Shown one piece after another: positions 21,407 to 31,775 of a stretch of 64,000 nucleotides of DNA. Made by a program: the position numbers and the translations under genes. The DNA lies in the NCBI RefSeq assembly GCF_016859125.1, contig NZ_CP069338.1, positions 2,692,501-2,756,500 of the forward strand. Reading direction: 5' to 3'. A model generated the notes under the pieces. That model was not told the origin of the DNA and ran no database searches. It saw only the letters and a program-made list of their open reading frames with translations. Each line of letters begins with the position of its first letter. Position 1 is the stretch's first letter. Origin of the DNA: Archangium violaceum. Its GTDB lineage: Bacteria > Myxococcota > Myxococcia > Myxococcales > Myxococcaceae.

Positions 21407-23752
21407 TCAGAGCCGGATGCCAATCTGCACGCCGGGCCAGAACTGCACCGAGGAGGAGGTGTCGATCCGATCCTCCTGCACCGGCAACGAGGTGAGCTTG
21501 TACCGGTCCGCCTCGCTGAAGGCGAAGTAGACGTTGTAGGTGGGCCCACCGAAGAGGGCGAAGCGCTCGAAGAGCTGCACCCCGAGCATCAGGCGCGCCT
21601 GGGCCAGCAGGTTGTCGCTGCCCCCGAAGGGGTCCCTCACTCGACGCATCGTGCTGCCCGCCACGTCCCCATCCAGCCACATGCGATCGCCCCACAGCGG
21701 CAGGTGGACGCCCAGCCCGAGGCCCAGGCTGAAGCGCTCCATCCGATCGTCCGGCCCGATGCCGCCCAGCAGCGTCGTGTACACGTACTTGCCGCCGAAC
21801 TTCACGCCGATGTTGGTGAGGTGGATGTCGCTCCCGTAGAACTCCACGTGGAACTGCCCCTTCTTCTCGAAGGAGAGCAGTCCGAAGGGCACGCCCTTCA
21901 CCTCCTCGGAGACGTTCACCAGGCCGAACTGCACGCCCCGCACCACCCGGGCCACGTTGACGAGCCCCAGCTGCAGGCCCGACACGTCCCCGCCCACGTT
22001 CAGCAGCGACAGCTGCATGCCCGACACGTTGCCCGCGCGATTGAACGCCGCCGACCATTGCGCGCCCCGCACCGCGCCGCCCGCCACGTTGAAGACCCCG
22101 GCGCCCTGGAAGCCCTCGAATTCACCCCGCGCCACGTTGAAGCCTCCCGAGCCCTGAAAGCCTCCGAAGCTCCCGCCCGTCACGTTCCCGACGCCCGACA
22201 GCTGCACGCCCCACACCGAGCCCGTCGCCACGTTCGCTCCCCCCGCCAGCTGCCCCAGCCCCACGTCCCCGCGCGCCACGTTCATGACCCCCGCCAGCTG
22301 CCCCCACTCCACGTCCCCGCGCGCCACGTTCACGCCCGCCGTCGCCTGCATTCCATCCACCGGGCCGAGCGCGATGTTCGCCACCGAGGAGGCCTGCACT
22401 CCGCTCGAGCGGCCCTTCACCATGTTCATGCCCGTGGACAGCAGCGCACCGTGGGCCTCCTCGTCGTACCAGTTGGCCAGCAGCGACAGCGCCGCGCCCC
22501 GCACCGCCGCGCCCCCGTTCACCATGCCGAGCGCGAACTGGTTCTCCACCGCCTGGCCCGGTGCACGAAGCGTATTGGTGCTCAGCGACGGAATCACGCT
22601 CAGCGCCGTCGCCAGCCGCGTGCGCGGCCGCCCGGCCGGACTCCCCGCCTCCACCGGAGCCAGGGCCGCCTCGACACCCATCGCCCCACCGACGTTCCCG
22701 CGTGACACGGTGGCCTCCAGCGGCACGCTCGTGAAGCTCGCGGGAGACAGCGGGGTGCGCTGGCCCTCCACGAGCGAGAAGGTGGCCTCGGAGGCCCTGT
22801 TGTCCAGCTCGCGCCGCACGTGGTAGCGCCCGGGCGCCAGTCCCAGCTCCGTGGGCCGGCCCGGCAGCTTCTGCAGCTCCACCACCAGGTTGCCCGCCTC
22901 GTCGCGCACGAAGAGCCGGCCCTCCAGCGCCTCCGCCAGGTACAGCCCCGCCGACGTGGCCCGCAGGTCCGTCATCACCAGGTCCCCCGAGCCGGCCAGC
23001 TCGATGTCATAGGCCGGGTGCTGGGCGCCGCCGCGCGTCTTCTCGGTGCGGGCCAGCGTCTCGTGGAAGGCGAACTGGTAGGCCTCGTTGAGGGTGACGC
23101 GCCCGTCGCGGGTGGAGTCGGCCGCGCCGCGCAGGCCGGAGATCAGGTGGTGGGTGAAGTACGAGCCGCCCAGCCTGTCGGACTCCTGCGAGGCCTCGTC
23201 CTCGCTGGAGGAGGTGAGGATGGCGTGGCCCCGCACCTTGTTGCCCGAGTCCACGAGGAAGGCGGGCCGGCGGGTGCCCCCCTTGGTGCGGGCGAAGGCA
23301 CCCGAGGCGCAGCTGTCCAGCACGGCGATGCGCACGTCCGCGGGCAGGGCATTCAGGGCGCGGCGCAGCTCGCCATAGTCCAGGCGCTCGCCCTTGAGCA
23401 GCAGCCCCTCCTCGTCCGAGTGGCCCGAGTAATAGACGAGCACCTCCACGCGCGAGGCCCCGGACGCCCGGGCGGCCTCGGCGCGCGAGCGCAGCTCCCC
23501 GAGCGCCGTCAGCAACTCCGAGCGCCCCGACTCCACCAGCAGGCGCCGGTCCCCGGCGGCGACTCCGCCCAGCTCGCCCAGCACCTTGTCGAAGGACTTC
23601 GCGTCCGACACGGCGTAGCGCAGGCGCACGCGCTCGGGGCCGCCGTCGTTGACGCCCACGAGGAGCGCGAGCCGCCGCACCGTGCCCGTCTCGGCGAGGG
23701 CCGGAGCGGCGAGCAGCAGGCCGAGGAGGACGAAGGCTCTGGAAACGCTCAT
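21407..23752 (-). CDS. Caspase-family (C14) protease fused to LA_2272-like surface repeats
   Basis: A 781-residue secreted or outer-membrane protein. The signal peptide ends ALAETG. A caspase/metacaspase-like domain (about 25-250) has the catalytic His in VYYSGHSDEEG and Cys in VLDSCASGAF. A PEGA-like beta domain (about 275-345) follows. About a dozen repeats of roughly 16 residues then occupy about 400-610, with the theme G-x-Q-L-G-(x)-V-N-V-A (for example SGLQLGLVNVARVV). This is the pattern called LA_2272 surface repeats. A C-terminal barrel-like region ends in GVQIGIRL. The start at 23752 overlaps the stop of the upstream ActD-like gene (ATGA). The open frame continues to 24514 but only as the shadow of that gene. 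A protease with predicted Arg/Lys or Asp preference displayed with a repeat barrel is unusual. Confidence 0.85.
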   Translation of the reverse strand: MSVSRAFVLLGLLLAAPALAETGTVRRLALLVGVNDGGPERVRLRYAVSDAKSFDKVLGELGGVAAGDRRLLVESGRSELLTALGELRSRAEAARASGASRVEVLVYYSGHSDEEGLLLKGERLDYGELRRALNALPADVRIAVLDSCASGAFARTKGGTRRPAFLVDSGNKVRGHAILTSSSEDEASQESDRLGGSYFTHHLISGLRGAADSTRDGRVTLNEAYQFAFHETLARTEKTRGGAQHPAYDIELAGSGDLVMTDLRATSAGLYLAEALEGRLFVRDEAGNLVVELQKLPGRPTELGLAPGRYHVRRELDNRASEATFSLVEGQRTPLSPASFTSVPLEATVSRGNVGGAMGVEAALAPVEAGSPAGRPRTRLATALSVIPSLSTNTLRAPGQAVENQFALGMVNGGAAVRGAALSLLANWYDEEAHGALLSTGMNMVKGRSSGVQASSVANIALGPVDGMQATAGVNVARGDVEWGQLAGVMNVARGDVGLGQLAGGANVATGSVWGVQLSGVGNVTGGSFGGFQGSGGFNVARGEFEGFQGAGVFNVAGGAVRGAQWSAAFNRAGNVSGMQLSLLNVGGDVSGLQLGLVNVARVVRGVQFGLVNVSEEVKGVPFGLLSFEKKGQFHVEFYGSDIHLTNIGVKFGGKYVYTTLLGGIGPDDRMERFSLGLGLGVHLPLWGDRMWLDGDVAGSTMRRVRDPFGGSDNLLAQARLMLGVQLFERFALFGGPTYNVYFAFSEADRYKLTSLPVQEDRIDTSSSVQFWPGVQIGIRL

Positions 23753-24540
23753 GGCGAGGACTTCTCCAACAGGAAGGATGTCTGCATGTACCGCGAAGGC
23801 AGGGGCAAGCGCGAGGTTCGCGCCTCCGGATGGGTGGCGAGCGAGCGGGCGGCGGCGAGCACCTCGTCCAGGGCGAAGGGGGCCTCGGCGGTGACGAGGA
23901 AGAAGCGCTCGAAGCCGGGCGCGTCGTCCAGGGCGTAGGCGCCGGGCAGCACGTGGGTGCCGGAGGGCGCGAGCGGCACCGAGGCGGTACCGGACTCGGG
24001 GGCATGCAGGGTGATGGTGCCCCGTCCGTCCACGGAGAGGATGACGCCATGCGCCTGGCCCGCGGCCACGTAGGCCAGCTGCACCACGTCCCCGGGAGCC
24101 GCGAGCGCCCCATCCGCGAGCTCCTCGGCGGCGTCGGCGTGCTGGCGGTGGACGGTGAGCCGGGCCCCCAGGCCCTTCAACCGCGTCTCCTCCAGCTCCA
24201 CCGCGGGGCCCACCGGGGCGGAGACCTGGGGCCGCGCGAGGACGGCGAGGCCCGCGACCGCGAGCGCCGGCACGAGGGCGAAGGCGGGAAGAAAGGAGCG
24301 GGAGGGACGCTCCCCGCGAGCCCGCTGGACGCGGACCCGGGACTCCACCCGTCGGGCTACTTCCGAGGGTGGGAGCCGGGCGAGGATGGCGGCGGTGTCG
24401 GCCTCGAGCGCGGCGAGCCGGGCGGCGCCGTCCGGCTCCTCGAGGAGACGGACCCTGGCGGCGGCGAGCATCTCGGGGGGGAGCTCTCCGAGGGCGATCC
24501 GTTCGAGCAACCAATCGGGGGTGCGATAGGGGGGACGCAT
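23749..24540 (-). CDS. ActD-like single-span membrane protein (anti-sigma-like)
   Basis: 263 residues. The helical N-terminal cytoplasmic part (TPDWLLERIALGELPPEML, then an E/A-rich helix) resembles anti-sigma or ActD-like proteins of myxobacteria, but no zinc-binding HxxxCxxC is present. One membrane helix (about 83-103, FALVPALAVAGLAVLA) is followed by a beta-rich extracytoplasmic domain containing GVILSVDGRGTITLH. It overlaps the caspase gene by 4 nt, so the two are translationally coupled and probably act together at the envelope. The cognate sigma factor, if any, is not in this window. Function inferred from context only. Confidence 0.7.
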   Translation of the reverse strand: MRPPYRTPDWLLERIALGELPPEMLAAARVRLLEEPDGAARLAALEADTAAILARLPPSEVARRVESRVRVQRARGERPSRSFLPAFALVPALAVAGLAVLARPQVSAPVGPAVELEETRLKGLGARLTVHRQHADAAEELADGALAAPGDVVQLAYVAAGQAHGVILSVDGRGTITLHAPESGTASVPLAPSGTHVLPGAYALDDAPGFERFFLVTAEAPFALDEVLAAARSLATHPEARTSRLPLPSRYMQTSFLLEKSSP

Positions 24541-24790: not shown

Positions 24791-25447
24791 GTGACGACGA
24801 CCGACACCCTTGAAGCGCTCAAGGACTCCTACTTGTCCGCCCAACTCGCGGGAAACCGCCGAGAGGCCCTGCGCCTCCTCGTGGACGAGGGCGTCCTCCG
24901 GGGAGTTCCCCTGCCCACCCTGCACCTGGAGGTCATCCAGAAGGCCCAGTGGGAGATCGGCCGGTTGTGGCAGGAGAACCACATCTCGGTGGCGCAGGAG
25001 CACATGGCCACCGCCATCTCCCAGCTGGCCCTGTCGCACCTCTACCGTCACCTGCCCAGGGATCCACCCAATGGCCGCCTGGTGATGGTCTCGTGCGTGG
25101 AGGGCGAGCTGCACGAGCTGGGGGCGCGCATGGCCAGTGACTTCCTGGAGATGGCGGGCTTCGACGTGCGCTTCCTCGGAGCCAGCGTCCCCACGGAGCA
25201 CCTGGTGCGGGAGGTGCTCGGCTCCAAACCGGATCTCCTGGCGCTGTCTGTTACCATGACGTACCACCTCCCCGCGTTGCGTCAGGCGATGGCCGCGGTG
25301 CGCGAGGTCGCACCGATGTTGCCCGTGGCCGTGGGGGGGTTGGCCTTCACCTGGGCTCCCGGAGTGGAGGCGGCTCTCGGAGTGCCCTTCTTCGGCAAGG
25401 ACGCGCGCGAGCTGGTCGCGGCGGCCTGCAGGATGTTCAAGGTGTAG
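24791..25447 (+). CDS. Stand-alone cobalamin-binding protein with CarH-type photoreceptor signature
   Basis: 218 residues. The N-terminal helical bundle carries W60 and E70-H71, exactly the W-x9-EH motif that marks adenosylcobalamin-dependent CarH photoreceptors. The C-terminal Rossmann domain carries E106-x-H108-x2-G111, then 41 residues to S153-V-T, then 26 to G182-G183. This is the full B12-binding signature, with His108 the expected lower axial ligand. The MerR DNA-binding domain of CarH is absent, so output must be through protein contacts. It is first in an operon with a helical protein and two hybrid kinases (gaps 2 nt or overlaps). GTG at 24791 was chosen as start by domain length; an in-frame ATG at 24665 is an alternative. 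A methyltransferase corrinoid protein is the main other possibility. Confidence 0.88.
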   Translation: MTTTDTLEALKDSYLSAQLAGNRREALRLLVDEGVLRGVPLPTLHLEVIQKAQWEIGRLWQENHISVAQEHMATAISQLALSHLYRHLPRDPPNGRLVMVSCVEGELHELGARMASDFLEMAGFDVRFLGASVPTEHLVREVLGSKPDLLALSVTMTYHLPALRQAMAAVREVAPMLPVAVGGLAFTWAPGVEAALGVPFFGKDARELVAAACRMFKV

Positions 25448-25449
25448 CC

Positions 25450-26013
25450 ATGCAATCTCTCGCGAGGCTGGTGGAGGGCCGCACCCAGCGGCTCGCCGAG
25501 ACGTCCGTCTCGGGGCTCTACGAGGACCCCTTCTGGTTCGCCCGCTACGGCGAGGACCGGGCCCGGCGCTTTGGCGGCGAGGATGCCGTCTTCCACGTGC
25601 GCTACCTGGTACAGGCGCTGGAGTACGTGCGCGCGGCCGAGTCCGCCCTGGAGTGGCCCGAGGGCCCCGCGCGCGCCGTCCACGAGGCCCGCTCGGCGCT
25701 GGTGCGCCAGACCCTCCACATGCTGTCGGCCCGGGAGGGCCCTCCAACACCCGAGCAGGCGCGTCGTCTGGAGGAAGAGTTGCTACTGCAACTGTCATAC
25801 CTGATGGACGCGCTCGGCACGAAAAGGCCGGGGCTGTTCGTGGAGCATGTGCGGTGGTACGCGGGTTTCTGGCCGAACAGGGAACTGCGGTACACCTACC
25901 GAGGGCTGCTGGAGGCGCTGGAGTCGGCGCTCGCCCAGGAGGCCTCCGTCTCGGAGTTGCCCCGTGCGACGGTGGCGACAGGGCGCACCGCCCTGGAAAA
26001 GGAGCACTCATGA
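25450..26013 (+). CDS. Helical protein of unknown function in the B12/kinase operon
   Basis: 187 residues, predicted all-helical, no signal peptide or membrane segment. It opens with a distinctive aromatic block LYEDPFWFARYGEDRARRF and later has FVEHVRWYAGFWP. No catalytic or cofactor motif was recognised. It begins 2 nt after the B12-domain gene, and its stop overlaps the start of the hybrid kinase (ATGA), so its stoichiometry is probably tied to both. It may link the B12 domain to the kinase, for example as an adaptor, but this is inference from gene order alone. Confidence 0.78.
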   Translation: MQSLARLVEGRTQRLAETSVSGLYEDPFWFARYGEDRARRFGGEDAVFHVRYLVQALEYVRAAESALEWPEGPARAVHEARSALVRQTLHMLSAREGPPTPEQARRLEEELLLQLSYLMDALGTKRPGLFVEHVRWYAGFWPNRELRYTYRGLLEALESALAQEASVSELPRATVATGRTALEKEHS

Positions 26014-28046
26014 CGACGCCCGTACCCGCGTCCCTGTGGCAGTTCCTGAGCCGCGAGGTGGCGCTGGTGTGCGATGCGTCTGGCACCCTCGCCTGGGTGG
26101 ATGATCGCGCGGTGCGGCTGCTGGAAGCCGTGCCGGGCCAGCCGCTGCGTGCGCTGGCGGCCCAGGGCACCGAGGACAAGGTGGACAAGCTCATCACCCT
26201 GGCTCGTGACGAGCGGGTGGAGGGCTGGGAGATCATCCTCTGCGTGGCGGGCATGCCGCGCACCTTCGCCTTCCGGGGCGCCCCGCACGAGGGAGGCGTG
26301 GCGCTGGTGGGCAGCCTGGTGGCGGAGGACTACGCCGCCTCGCTCTCGCAGGTGAGCGAGACGATGAGCGAGCTGGCGGCGATGCACCGCGAGGCGGAGC
26401 GCAACCAACGCGAGCTCAAGCGGCGCGCGGACGAGCTGTTTCGCCTCAACCGGGAGCTGGAGGAGTCCAACCGCGGCGTGCGCACCCTGCACGCCGAGCT
26501 GGACGAGAAGACGGAGAGCCTGGTGCGCGCCGCGGAAGTGAAGAGCCGCGTGGTGGCCAACGTGAGCCACGAGTTCCGCACCCCGCTGCACTCCATCCTC
26601 GGACTGGCGCGGCTGCTGCTCAACCCCGTCAACGGCCCGCTCGCCCCCGAGCAGCAGAAGCAGGTGCAGTTCATCCGCACCTCGGCCGAGGCGCTCTTCG
26701 AGCTGGTGAATGACCTGCTGGACCTCTCCAAGATGGAGTCCGGCAAGGCGACGCTGCGGCCCACGCGCTTCAGCTCGGGGGACTTCCTGGGGGCGCTGCG
26801 CGGGATGATGCGGCCGCTGGTGCCGGCGGACTCGGCGGTGGAGCTGCGCTTCGAGGAGCCCGAGACGAACCTCACGCTGGAGACGGACGAGGCCAAGGTG
26901 AGCCAGGTGCTGCGCAACCTGGTGTCCAACGCGCTGAAGTTCACGGAGAAGGGCCACGTCACCGTCTCGGCCGAGCGGGGCCCGGACGACACGGTGTGCT
27001 TCCGGGTGCGCGACACGGGCATCGGCATCGCGCAGGCGCACCACACGCGCATCTTCGAGGAATTCACCCAGGTGGAGAGCCCGCTGCAGAAGAAGGTGAA
27101 GGGCACGGGCCTGGGGCTGGCGCTGTCGCGGCGGCTCGCGGAGTTCCTGGGCGGCAGCCTCACGGTGCAGAGCACGCCGGGCCAGGGCTCCACCTTCCTG
27201 CTCACCATCCCCCGGGTGCACCCGGAGGTGCAGGAGATGGCGGGCCTCGCCGAGCGCAGCCAGCAGTTGGATCCAGCCCGCGCGCCGGTGCTGGTGCTGG
27301 AGGACGACCGGCAGACGCTCTTCCTCTACGGGAAGTACCTGGCGCGCTCGGGCTTCCAGGTGCTGCCGGTGCGCACGGTGGACGAGGCGCGGCGAACCAT
27401 CCAGCGGGTGCGTCCGGCGGCGGTGGTGCTGGACGTCATGCTGGAGGGCGAGACGAGCTGGGGCTTCCTCTCCGAGCTCAAGGGCAACGCGGCCACTCGC
27501 GACATCCCCATCCTGGTGGTGACGCTGATGGACCGCGAGAACAAGGCGCGCGCGCTGGGCGCGGACGAGTTCTGGCTCAAGCCCGTGGTCGAGGAGCAGC
27601 TCCTGAGCAAGCTGGCCTCCATGGCGCGCACCGGCCCCATGCGCAAGCTGCTCATCATCGACGACGACGACGTGCACCGCTACCTGCTGCGGCAGCTCCT
27701 CAAGGACACGCCCTACATGCTGGCGGAGGCGTCCAACGGGCCCGCGGGCATCCAGCTGGCGCGCGAGCAGGTCCCCGACCTCATCTTCCTGGACTTCGTG
27801 CTCACGGACATGACGGCCTTCGACGTGCTGGACGACTTGAAGGCCGACCCACGCACGCGCGACATCCCCGTCATCCTCCACACGTCGCGACAGTTGCGGG
27901 AAGACGAACGCCAGCGGCTGGCGAAGGAGACCGCGACCATCCTGGCCAAGCACACGCTGAGTCGTGAGGTGGCCATCGCCCGCATCCGGGACGCACTGCA
28001 CAAGACGGGCCTGGGCACCGACAACGGAGAGAGCCGACGTGGCTGA
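26010..28046 (+). CDS. Hybrid histidine kinase with two C-terminal receiver domains
   Basis: 678 residues, cytosolic. A short PAS-like N-terminal domain (about 10-110) is followed by a coiled coil (about 115-178). HisKA has H187 in ANVSHEFRTPLHSILG. HATPase includes DTGIGIA and GTGLGLALSRRLAEF. Two receivers follow: the first (about 428-540) with acceptor Asp in VVLDVMLEG, the second (about 545-660) with IIDDDDVHRYL and LIFLDFVLTD. In the last receiver the segment TILAKHTLS replaces the usual Lys-Pro. Third gene of the B12 operon; start overlaps the preceding stop and its own stop overlaps the next start. No membrane segment, so its input must be soluble, plausibly the B12 protein. Confidence 0.92.
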   Translation: MTTPVPASLWQFLSREVALVCDASGTLAWVDDRAVRLLEAVPGQPLRALAAQGTEDKVDKLITLARDERVEGWEIILCVAGMPRTFAFRGAPHEGGVALVGSLVAEDYAASLSQVSETMSELAAMHREAERNQRELKRRADELFRLNRELEESNRGVRTLHAELDEKTESLVRAAEVKSRVVANVSHEFRTPLHSILGLARLLLNPVNGPLAPEQQKQVQFIRTSAEALFELVNDLLDLSKMESGKATLRPTRFSSGDFLGALRGMMRPLVPADSAVELRFEEPETNLTLETDEAKVSQVLRNLVSNALKFTEKGHVTVSAERGPDDTVCFRVRDTGIGIAQAHHTRIFEEFTQVESPLQKKVKGTGLGLALSRRLAEFLGGSLTVQSTPGQGSTFLLTIPRVHPEVQEMAGLAERSQQLDPARAPVLVLEDDRQTLFLYGKYLARSGFQVLPVRTVDEARRTIQRVRPAAVVLDVMLEGETSWGFLSELKGNAATRDIPILVVTLMDRENKARALGADEFWLKPVVEEQLLSKLASMARTGPMRKLLIIDDDDVHRYLLRQLLKDTPYMLAEASNGPAGIQLAREQVPDLIFLDFVLTDMTAFDVLDDLKADPRTRDIPVILHTSRQLREDERQRLAKETATILAKHTLSREVAIARIRDALHKTGLGTDNGESRRG

Positions 28047-29577
28047 CATCACCCTTTGCGCGACCATCCTCAACGTCAACGACGACGAGGCGACCCGCTA
28101 TCTGTCGACGCGCACGCTGACGATGGCGGGCTACCGGGTGCTGGAAGCGGCCACGGGTGAAGAGGCGCTGCGGCTGGCCGAGCAGGAGCGGCCGGACGTG
28201 GTGGTGCTGGACGTGAAGCTGCCGGACATCAGCGGCTACGAGGTGTGCCAGCGGCTGCGCGCCCGGCCGGAGACGGCCTCCATCGCGGTGATGCACACCT
28301 CGGCCACCTACGTCACCCCGGACAAGAAGGTGCGCGGGCTGGAGGGCGGCGCGGACGCCTACCTCACCGAGCCCTTCGAGGGCGAGGAGCTCATCGCCAC
28401 GGTGCGCTCGCTGTTGCGCATGCGGCGCGCGGAGCAGGAGCTGCGCCGGCGCGCGGAGCAACTGGCGGAGACGGACCGGCGCAAGGACCTGTTCCTGGCC
28501 ATGCTGGCGCACGAGCTGCGCAACCCCCTGGCCGCCATCACCACCGCGGTGGGCATCCTCGAGCGCCGGGCCTCGGTGGACCCCAAGGACGGCCGGATGA
28601 TCTCCATCATCCAGCGCCAGACGAACCACCTGGCGCGGCTGGTGGACGACCTGCTGGACGTGAGCCGCATCACCCGCGGCAAGGTGGAGCTGCGCCGGCT
28701 GCGGGTGGACCTGCGGGGCGTGCTGGAGCAGGTGTTGACGGCGCTCCACCCGTTGGCGGAGAGCCGCCACCTGAAGCTGGAGTCGCACCTGCCGTCGGTG
28801 CCGCTGTGGGTGGAGGGAGACACGACGCGGCTGGAGCAGGTCTTCACCAACCTGCTGGACAACGCGACGAAGTACACGGACGCGGGCGGCTCCATCCAGG
28901 TACGGGCGGAGCTGTCGGCGGCGGAGGACGGGAGCCCGGGCGCGGTGGTGCGGGTGAAGGACACGGGCATCGGCATCCGGGCGGACCTGCTGCCCGCGGT
29001 CTTCGAGCTGTTCTCCCAGGCGGACGAATCGCTGGAGCGCACGCGCGGAGGGCTGGGCATCGGGCTGACGCTGGTGAAGAACCTGGTGGAGATGCACGGG
29101 GGCCGGGTGGAGGCGCACAGCGACGGCCCGGGACGGGGCAGCGAGTTCGTGGTGTGGCTGCCGCTGCTGCCGGCGGCGACGGTGTCGGAGCAGGAGGTGG
29201 TGCTGCCCGCGCTGGTGAAGCGGCGCCGGCACATCCTGCTGGTGGAGGACAACGTGGACGCGCGGCAGGCGCTCCAGGACTTGCTGGAGACGTGGGGCCA
29301 CCGGGTGGAGGTGGCGGCGGACGGACTGCGCGGGTTGGAGCTGGCGGTGCAGCGCACGCCGGAGCTGGCGCTGGTGGACATCGGGCTGCCGGGGCTGGAC
29401 GGCTACCGGGTGGCGGAGGAGCTGCGGGCGAAGATGGGCCGGGGCATCCGGCTGGTGGCGCTCACGGGCTACGGCGGAACGGACGACCAGAGCCGGGCGC
29501 GCCAGGCGGGCTTCGATCTGCACCTGGTGAAGCCGGTGAAGCCGGACGAGCTGAGCCGCCTGTTGTCGGAGCTGTAG
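28039..29577 (+). CDS. REC-HisKA-HATPase-REC hybrid kinase
   Basis: 512 residues. The N-terminal receiver has acceptor D58 in VVLDVKLPD, but the usual conserved Lys is replaced by E111 (LTEPF). HisKA has H158 in LAHELRNPLAAI, and HATPase has DTGIGIR and GLGIGLTLVKNLV. A second receiver with a normal Lys (LVKPVKPDEL) ends the protein. It starts at GTG 28039, inside the 3' end of the previous kinase gene. It is the final gene of the B12 operon. The Lys-to-Glu change suggests the first receiver has altered phosphorylation chemistry or is a docking module. No DNA-binding output, so another regulator must complete the pathway. Confidence 0.92.
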   Translation: MADITLCATILNVNDDEATRYLSTRTLTMAGYRVLEAATGEEALRLAEQERPDVVVLDVKLPDISGYEVCQRLRARPETASIAVMHTSATYVTPDKKVRGLEGGADAYLTEPFEGEELIATVRSLLRMRRAEQELRRRAEQLAETDRRKDLFLAMLAHELRNPLAAITTAVGILERRASVDPKDGRMISIIQRQTNHLARLVDDLLDVSRITRGKVELRRLRVDLRGVLEQVLTALHPLAESRHLKLESHLPSVPLWVEGDTTRLEQVFTNLLDNATKYTDAGGSIQVRAELSAAEDGSPGAVVRVKDTGIGIRADLLPAVFELFSQADESLERTRGGLGIGLTLVKNLVEMHGGRVEAHSDGPGRGSEFVVWLPLLPAATVSEQEVVLPALVKRRRHILLVEDNVDARQALQDLLETWGHRVEVAADGLRGLELAVQRTPELALVDIGLPGLDGYRVAEELRAKMGRGIRLVALTGYGGTDDQSRARQAGFDLHLVKPVKPDELSRLLSEL

Positions 29578-30137: not shown

Positions 30138-31775
30138 ATGGCGCTCGGGATTGGACGACGGCGTAGCCTGCTGTTGAAGTTCTACGTGGCGATCCTGATC
30201 GCCGTGCTGCCGCTGTGGATGTTGCAGCAGCTGTACCTGTTACCGGCCATCCATCAGCGGCTGCGCGAGGCGAGGCTCCGCGCGGTGCGGCAGCTAGTGG
30301 AGGCGGGCCACGGAATCCTCCAGGCGTACGAGGCGCGGGTGCGCTCGGGCGAGCTGACTCCCGAGGAGGCGCGCCGGGGAGCGGCGGCGCTGCTGGAGGG
30401 CCTGCGCTACGCGAACGGCGAGTATTACTGGCTCAACGACCTGGACACGCGGTTGGTGATGCACCCCTTCCTGCCGGAGCGCATGGGCGAGGACATGAGG
30501 GGGTACCAGGACGTGGCGGGCAAGCCGGTGTTCGTGGACATCGTGGAGCTGGCCCGCGAGCGGGGAGAGGGCGCGGTGGAGTACCTGGCGACACACCCGC
30601 GCGAGCCCCATCCGATTCCCAAGCTGTCCTACGTGAAGCTGTTCGAGCCGTGGGGCTGGGTGCTGGGGACGGGCGTGTACATGGAGGACATCGAGCACGA
30701 GGTGGCGGCGGTCCAGCGGCGGATGTGGGTGGCGCTGCTGGCGGGTGTGGTGCTGGCGGGGCTGGCGGGGGTGTACTTCTCGCGGCGGGTGCTGACGCCG
30801 ATGCGCTCGCTGGTGGAGGCGGCGGGACAGGTGGCGCGGGGAGACCTGAGGGTGGCGGTGGTGGTGCCCTCACGAGACGAGGTGGGCGACCTGGGCCAGG
30901 CCTTCAACGCGATGGTGGCGAACGTGCATCGCATGCTGCGGGAGATGGGGGAGGTGTCGAAGGCGACGGAGACGGACGCGGAGCACATCCACGGCTCGGC
31001 GGACGGACTGAAACGGGCGGCGCAGGAGCAGTCGAGGGCGCTCAAGAACATGTCGGAAGCGGTGCTGGGGATGACCCGGGAGCTGGCCGTGGGAGCGCAC
31101 CAGGCGGGGCAGACGGCGCGGTCGGCGGAGACGAACGAGCGGGTGGCACGCGAGGGGGGCGCGGTGGTGAGGGGGACGGGGGAGAAGATGAAGGAGATCG
31201 CCCGGGTGGTGGAGCGCTGGGCGAAGACGGTGGACCGGCTGACGCGGTGGAGCGAGGAGGTGGAGCAGGCGGTGGAGCTCATCTCGGACGTGGCGGATCA
31301 AACGCGGGTGCTGGCGGTGAACACGTCCATCGAGGCGATGAGGGCGGGAGAGAACGGGAAGGGCTTCGCGGTGGTGGCGCAGGAGGTGCGCAAGCTGGCG
31401 GAGCAGGCGCGGGCGGCGGCGGAGCGGATTGGGGCGCTGATGAAGCAGAGCCAGGAGGAGACGCAGGCGGCGGCGGAGCAGATGCGCGAGGGCCGCATGC
31501 GGGTGCACGAGGGGCTGGCGCTCTCGGAGGAGACGGGGAAGGCGCTGGAGCGGATCGTCGCGGGGGCGGAGGAGATTCAGAGGCAGGTGAAGGACACGGC
31601 GCGAGCCCATGCGGCCCAGGCGGAGGCGGGCGAGGAGCTCACGCTGCGAATCCACGCGCTATCGAGCCAGGCGGACGACTCGGCGCAGGAGGTGGTGCAG
31701 ATCACGAAGGCGGTGGAGGACCTGGAAGCGCGAGCGCGCCAGCTCCGAGAGCAGGTGACCCACTTTTCCAGGTAG
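30138..31775 (+). CDS. Methyl-accepting chemotaxis protein with Cache sensor
   Basis: 545 residues. A membrane helix (about 15-35) leads to an extracytoplasmic Cache_2-type sensor (about 40-195, with [19 protein letters not shown] and [14 protein letters not shown]). A second helix (about 197-217), HAMP (about 215-270) and the long cytoplasmic signalling coiled coil follow. The hairpin tip reads [19 protein letters not shown] and then [17 protein letters not shown]. It diverges from the usual NLLALNAAIEA at several positions. Such receptors bind small organic ligands and control a CheA kinase. No che genes are adjacent, so it feeds a pathway elsewhere. Confidence 0.93.

Follow-up and report, generated by a model that had tools for sequence, protein, structure and literature searches.

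A putative light-sensing phosphorelay operon in Archangium violaceum with a photocobilin-like receptor split into two proteins

Background

What does an operon sense that begins with a gene for a stand-alone cobalamin-binding protein and ends with two soluble hybrid kinases? Such an operon is present in Archangium violaceum, within the stretch of contig NZ_CP069338.1 that was analysed (64,000 nucleotides, positions 2,692,501 to 2,756,500; hereafter the window). The light responses of myxobacteria are mostly ascribed to phytochromes and to the CarH/CarA carotenoid circuit. The original prediction for this locus was a CarH-type light receptor without its DNA-binding domain, which would act on the kinases by protein contact. 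The present analysis suggests that the operon probably encodes a phosphorelay that senses light (AdoCbl/bilin), with a photocobilin split into two proteins as its putative receptor; this reading rests on sequence comparisons and predicted structures.

Operon organisation

The operon consists of four genes on the + strand, within positions 24791-29577 of the window (Table 1). Their coordinates confirm the tight packing originally described, with one 2-nt gap followed by overlaps of 4 and 8 nt.

Table 1. Features of the operon, in positions of the window
Feature	Position	Strand	Description	Evidence
Gene 1	24791..25447	+	GTG start, 218 aa; stand-alone photocobilin-type cobalamin-binding protein (predicted)	Pfam, PDB matches, motif, tree
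Gene 2	25450..26013	+	Photoglobin-family protein (predicted), 187 aa; 2-nt gap after gene 1	Alignments, AF2 models, fold and profile matches
Deletion scar in gene 2	25613..25623	+	One copy left of AGGCGCTGGAG	DNA alignment with four congeners
Gene 3	26010..28046	+	Soluble hybrid kinase; 4-nt overlap with gene 2	Pfam
Gene 4	28039..29577	+	Soluble hybrid kinase; 8-nt overlap with gene 3	Pfam

Upstream of the operon, a divergent gene pair on the - strand (21407-24540) is kept in several relatives; its members encode a small anti-sigma-factor-like protein and a caspase-like protein with repeats. Downstream, a gene encoding a methyl-accepting chemotaxis-type receptor was found (30138-31775), likewise in about 10 of the 16 relatives (48-84% identity). 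A link of this receptor to light-directed behaviour is possible.

The cobalamin module of gene 1

Gene 1 possesses the Pfam domains B12-binding (4.7e-20) and B12-binding_2 (1.2e-9), which make up a complete two-part cobalamin module with no other part. No DNA-binding domain, including an N-terminal MerR domain, was detected with Pfam, in agreement with the original description of a cobalamin module without the MerR HTH. The motif residues, W60-x9-E70-H71 and E106-x-H108-x2-G111-x41-S153-V-T155-x26-G182G183, were all found at the positions first given for them, and conform to the motifs Wx9EH and D/ExHx2G/Px41SxT/Vx22-27GG published for CarH (PMC9304148). The motif is not a product of chance, because W60, E70, H71, E/D106 and H108 are almost invariant among about 75 homologues. 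By homology, H108 would be the lower cobalt ligand.

The CarH-type reading stood as far as the AdoCbl light-sensing motif is concerned, but not as a CarH that has lost its head. In a search of all PDB sequences, the best matches of gene 1 were the photocobilins 8j2x, 8j2w and 8j2y (E 6.6e-29 to 4.8e-27), whereas CarH reached an E of 2.1e-9 in the same search, and the NCBIfam CarH model gave 60 bits against a cut-off of 400. Genes similar to carA and carH are present elsewhere in the same genome, and their products were included in a tree of 56 B12 domains. There, gene 1 is nested among B12 proteins that adjoin a separate globin, and a branch with support of 100/98 parts it from the genome's own CarA/CarH. 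The photocobilin SasPcob stands on a long branch of this tree, and its placement is therefore imprecise. Since photocobilins match far better and the tree sets gene 1 apart, a headless CarH was rejected as the main account; in its sequence, gene 1 is closer to photocobilins than to CarH.

The two-domain architecture of gene 1 is also that of the MtaC/MtbC carriers, to which NCBIfam matches were obtained, and gene 1 could on this ground be a corrinoid carrier for a methyltransferase. We regard this as extremely unlikely, given that gene 1 scores far below the NCBIfam carrier cut-offs and possesses W-x9-EH, and that no methyltransferase was noticed near the examined loci of its homologues.

Residue H137, which corresponds to a bilin propionate contact of SasPcob, is retained in few groups beyond Myxococcaceae/Archangiaceae and MAG-72, which counts against a photocobilin-type receptor. 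As it is absent from many B12 proteins linked to a globin, H137 failed as a hallmark of a globin partner. Another kind of stand-alone B12 protein (52% identical), which has no globin, was found at loci L081 (6623-7228) and L082 (6796-7410), where the B12 genes adjoin a divergently transcribed GAF-type histidine kinase.

Gene 2 belongs to a family of tandem photoglobins

Gene 2 had been described as a helical protein, which is correct and understated. It has no Pfam match, and a plain helical scaffold was considered and rejected, since profile and fold searches identify a photoglobin. Orthologues of gene 2 comprise 225-241 aa (about 237 aa at full length), against 187 aa in the window. In a blind PDB search with a profile of 15 orthologues, the globin of SasPcob ranked first (5e-4). 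A broader profile, built from 10 split globins of several families, matched the three photocobilin sequences at 1.1e-7 to 7.7e-7, and the next, unrelated PDB match was at 0.27.

AF2 models reached a pLDDT of 95.7 for a full-length relative and 90.6 for the protein of the window. The best structure for globin domain 1 of the relative (residues 1-120) was 8j2w (Z 16.5, 1.9 Å, 115 residues), followed by a long list of phycobiliproteins. Domain 2 in the model of the window's protein (residues 67-187) also had 8j2w as its best match (Z 15.1, 2.7 Å, 23% identity). Because each half matches the bilin domain of photocobilins, the gene 2 family appears to be a tandem photoglobin pair, and its full-length members are predicted to consist of two photoglobins. 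The phycobiliprotein-fold bilin-globin domain is thus complete twice in the relatives, and once (domain 2) in the window.

In SasPcob, the contact to the bilin pyrroles is made by D270, and that to ring D and the corrin by W296 (PMC10979010). Their equivalents in domain 1, D45 and W71, show the same spacing of 26 residues, and are invariant in the split globins of those Myxococcota, Gemmatimonadota and Thermomicrobiota that keep the system. Domain 2 has E at the place of D270 and keeps W at the place of W296.

Orphan genes for tandem photoglobins were found at loci L175 (8504-9211) and L176 (8428-9135), from genomes G049 and G123, and probably, judged by score, in G133 and G145. In G049 and G123, which belong to the Myxococcus group, the B12 and kinase genes are gone, and the globin frame is kept with W71 and F48 replaced.

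Hybrid kinases

According to Pfam, gene 3 encodes HisKA (H187), HATPase and two REC domains (D475 and D595), and gene 4 encodes REC (D58), HisKA (H158), HATPase and REC (D447). Both hold the catalytic His and the receiver Asp of hybrid histidine kinases. No Pfam sensory domain was found in either protein, and no DNA-binding output domain in gene 4. The two hybrid kinases of the original prediction were thus recovered, but the small PAS domain proposed in gene 3 was dropped, as it has no Pfam match. The first 110 or so residues of gene 3 are nevertheless conserved, and are followed by a coiled coil. In the sampled genomes of the family, this N-terminus occurs only where an orthologue of the B12 gene is present (23 out of 57), and it was also found in other Myxococcota and in Gemmatimonadota. 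In Myxococcus sp. CA023 (locus L097, 6796-7896) gene 3 appears without its kinase core, in frame; most of the gene is missing, and the remnant joins the N-terminal domain to a receiver domain.

Deletion in gene 2

Compared with four congeners, gene 2 of the window lacks 156 bp in frame (52 codons), as evidenced by DNA alignment. In the relatives, the missing stretch is flanked by near-copies of the element of Table 1, which differ slightly from each other. The shortened gene retains residues 1-58 of globin domain 1 and the whole of domain 2 (about 67-187). D45 is still present, while the lost stretch carries W71, the equivalent of photocobilin W296, together with L76, G80, M81, H85 and L86; with W71 included, these are six of the 18 columns that are invariant across phyla. 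As most of the first bilin-globin domain is gone, red-light sensing may be lost in this strain, and a model with two chromophores fits the relatives, not necessarily the strain itself. The remaining system is most likely an AdoCbl (UV-green) sensor, unless domain 2 binds bilin.

The loss of 156 bp with conserved residues could also mark the first step in the decay of the whole operon, as in the Myxococcus relatives that keep only a diverged orphan globin (G049 and G123), and relative L097 has lost most of gene 3. Yet the deletion preserves the reading frame, genes 1, 3 and 4 are intact, and a relative-rate test, for which the codon estimates are crude, revealed no clear acceleration of amino-acid change in any of genes 1 to 4 on the branch of the window (ratios about 0.5-1.6, with gene 2 at about 1.0). 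Relaxed selection after the deletion was rejected on the basis of this test, and we consider decay an improbable explanation. The retained parts of gene 2 show no excess of amino-acid change, which means that the deletion happened recently, or else that the shortened protein is still functional.

Neighbourhood in other genomes

The order B12-globin-kinase-kinase was found in 16 out of 16 fetched loci with a globin beside the B12 gene, and also in named genomes of Archangium, Myxococcus, Pyxidicoccus, Hyalangium, and Corallococcus. The same pair of kinases lies beside the B12 and globin genes in Nannocystis, Kofleriaceae, Polyangiaceae, and Labilithrix, so that the association with the two kinases extends to other families of Myxococcota. 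Neither of two tests proposed at the outset refuted the prediction, as the order is kept, and the homologues of gene 1 do not lie mainly in methyltransferase operons in the neighbourhoods examined.

Genes for making bilins accompany several of these loci. In Nannocystis and Kofleriaceae, a heme oxygenase gene is located directly upstream of the B12 gene, in the order heme oxygenase-B12-globin, and the kinase pair is divergently transcribed. The globin and kinase genes of Polyangiaceae and MAG-72 are separated by a ferredoxin-dependent bilin reductase (PF05996), and contigs of Gemmatimonadaceae and Thermomicrobiaceae show the order B12-globin-bilin reductase (PF05996). Loci with bilin reductase are L079, L114, L115, L120 and L152; no bilin reductase was found between the operon genes of the window. 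Heme oxygenase is present in all 24 globin-bearing genomes of the family against 7 of the 33 without globin, a comparison confounded by shared ancestry. The genome of the window possesses two PF01126 genes. In L079 (MAG-72), a 112-aa heme-oxygenase-like fragment (985-1323) overlaps the start of the B12 gene, with a PF01126 match below the cut-off (E 0.14).

The profile search of sampled Myxococcota genomes found the globin almost only in one family. The tallies from the sampled genomes are lower bounds, because a B12-first scan of named genomes found the globin more widely. Proteins in which globin and B12 domain are fused, mostly followed by a histidine kinase gene, were found at L135, L137-L141, L144-L146, L148-L151 and L153, in Paenibacillus, Ignavibacteria, Spirochaetes, Bacteroidetes, and a Lokiarchaeota MAG.

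These neighbourhoods bear on what the receptor senses. The operon could respond to the supply of AdoCbl and not to light: binding of AdoCbl would order the B12 protein and switch the kinases, and its destruction by light would be incidental. Some loci with a B12 gene and two kinases but without detected globin (L118, L130 and L131) are compatible with such a sensor, as is the intact B12 module next to the damaged bilin globin of this strain. The retained adenosyl-contact motif W-x9-EH speaks against it, and so do the bilin globins and the genes for bilin synthesis in the clusters, for which a plain B12 sensor would have no use; a pure supply sensor is unlikely in our judgement. Still less probable, and indeed very unlikely, is a sensor of bilin, heme or redox state, in which the globin would sense bilin or heme breakdown, the B12 protein would be accessory and the kinases would report bilin status. 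The globin is conserved, clusters contain heme oxygenase and bilin reductase, and isolated BBAG-2 globins bind biliverdin and are photoinert (PMC10151467), all of which would suit this explanation. However, the B12 gene is highly conserved with its full photoreceptor motif, and in photocobilins the bilin works through B12 photochemistry (PMC10979010).

Proposed mechanism

For the preferred reading, a split photocobilin that drives a phosphorelay, we propose the following steps. Gene 1 would bind AdoCbl, with H108 below the cobalt and W60, E70 and H71 around the adenosyl group, and gene 2 would provide the bilin-globin half, a part of the same chain as the B12 domain in the photocobilins known so far. 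Ancestrally, biliverdin from heme oxygenase, perhaps reduced further by bilin reductase in some lineages, would be held in globin domain 1 beside the corrin, and both green light (through AdoCbl) and red light (through the bilin) would be able to break the Co-C bond. The neighbouring positions of AdoCbl and biliverdin, the light-driven break of this bond and a resulting change of oligomer are inferred by analogy with photocobilins (PMC10979010). The altered assembly of the B12 protein would then act, through protein contact, on the conserved N-terminal part of kinase 1, and phosphate would be handed along the two hybrid kinases to a regulator whose gene lies elsewhere. Computation supplied the gene structure, the motifs, the predicted fold, the conserved order, the clustering with bilin genes and the deletion. 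We infer the ligands, the response to light, the formation of the complex and the direction of kinase control, as well as the contact with kinase 1, the relay to an unlinked regulator and the change of colour in this strain.

A more far-reaching version is offered tentatively, as a possibility only: a two-chain photoreceptor, in which an AdoCbl protein is joined by a tandem bilin globin, would drive a dedicated two-kinase phosphorelay throughout Myxococcota and some Gemmatimonadota, it would be the first function for a BBAG-2-type globin, and a deletion in the bilin pocket would have shifted the tuning of this strain from two colours to a single one.

The operon predicts another, kinase-based channel for light in myxobacteria, and its presence in named Myxococcus, Corallococcus, and Archangium strains opens it to knockout there. 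The deletion in this strain would serve as a natural test of what the bilin contributes. For optogenetics, a B12-bilin receptor in two parts, with the kinase as a separate protein, would also be a handy design.

Comparison with known systems

Fused photocobilins (2024), photoglobin predictions (2022) and the pairing of bilin globins with B12 proteins in Myxococcales (2023) are already known. The photoglobin study of Schneider et al. from 2022 reportedly predicted that photoglobin and B12 domain form a light-sensing unit in signalling settings. Globin-B12 fusion genes beside kinases, as in Paenibacillus and others, are of that kind, whereas the globin of the present operon is of a split, tandem form.

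Similar to the photocobilins SasPcob and AbDPcob (Zhang et al. 2024, PMC10979010; PDB 8J2W, 8J2X, 8J2Y), the system combines the W-EH and E/DxH motifs in the B12 module with a bilin-globin fold, the globins of the relatives hold the equivalents of D270 and W296, and output would be through a linked enzyme. Photocobilins are, in contrast, one fused chain with a diguanylate cyclase as output; here the genes are separate (25447/25450), the globin is duplicated in tandem, the output is a pair of hybrid kinases, and the first globin domain is truncated in this strain. Because B12 module and globin are encoded by separate genes, the system would work like a canonical photocobilin and is not called one.

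Rockwell et al. (2023, PMC10151467) described BBAG-2 bilin globins as pairing with a B12-binding protein in heme-oxygenase-bearing genomes of Myxococcales. As in their case, the globin of the present system has its own gene, adjacent to that of a B12-binding protein, heme oxygenase is encoded in the genome, including that of the window, and a pre-2 bilin reductase is present in some clusters other than the operon of the window. It differs in the kinase pair, which is a conserved part of the cluster here and does not appear in the main text of PMC10151467. No published description of the conserved kinase pair of the split form was found by literature search or in the main texts examined. The functions of BBAG globins were called unknown in 2023 (PMC10151467), and the operon offers one for those of the BBAG-2 type.

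With CarH/CarA of Myxococcus and Thermus, gene 1 has the AdoCbl module and its motif in common; it differs from them in having no MerR DNA-binding domain, in belonging to another clade and in its predicted output through kinases.
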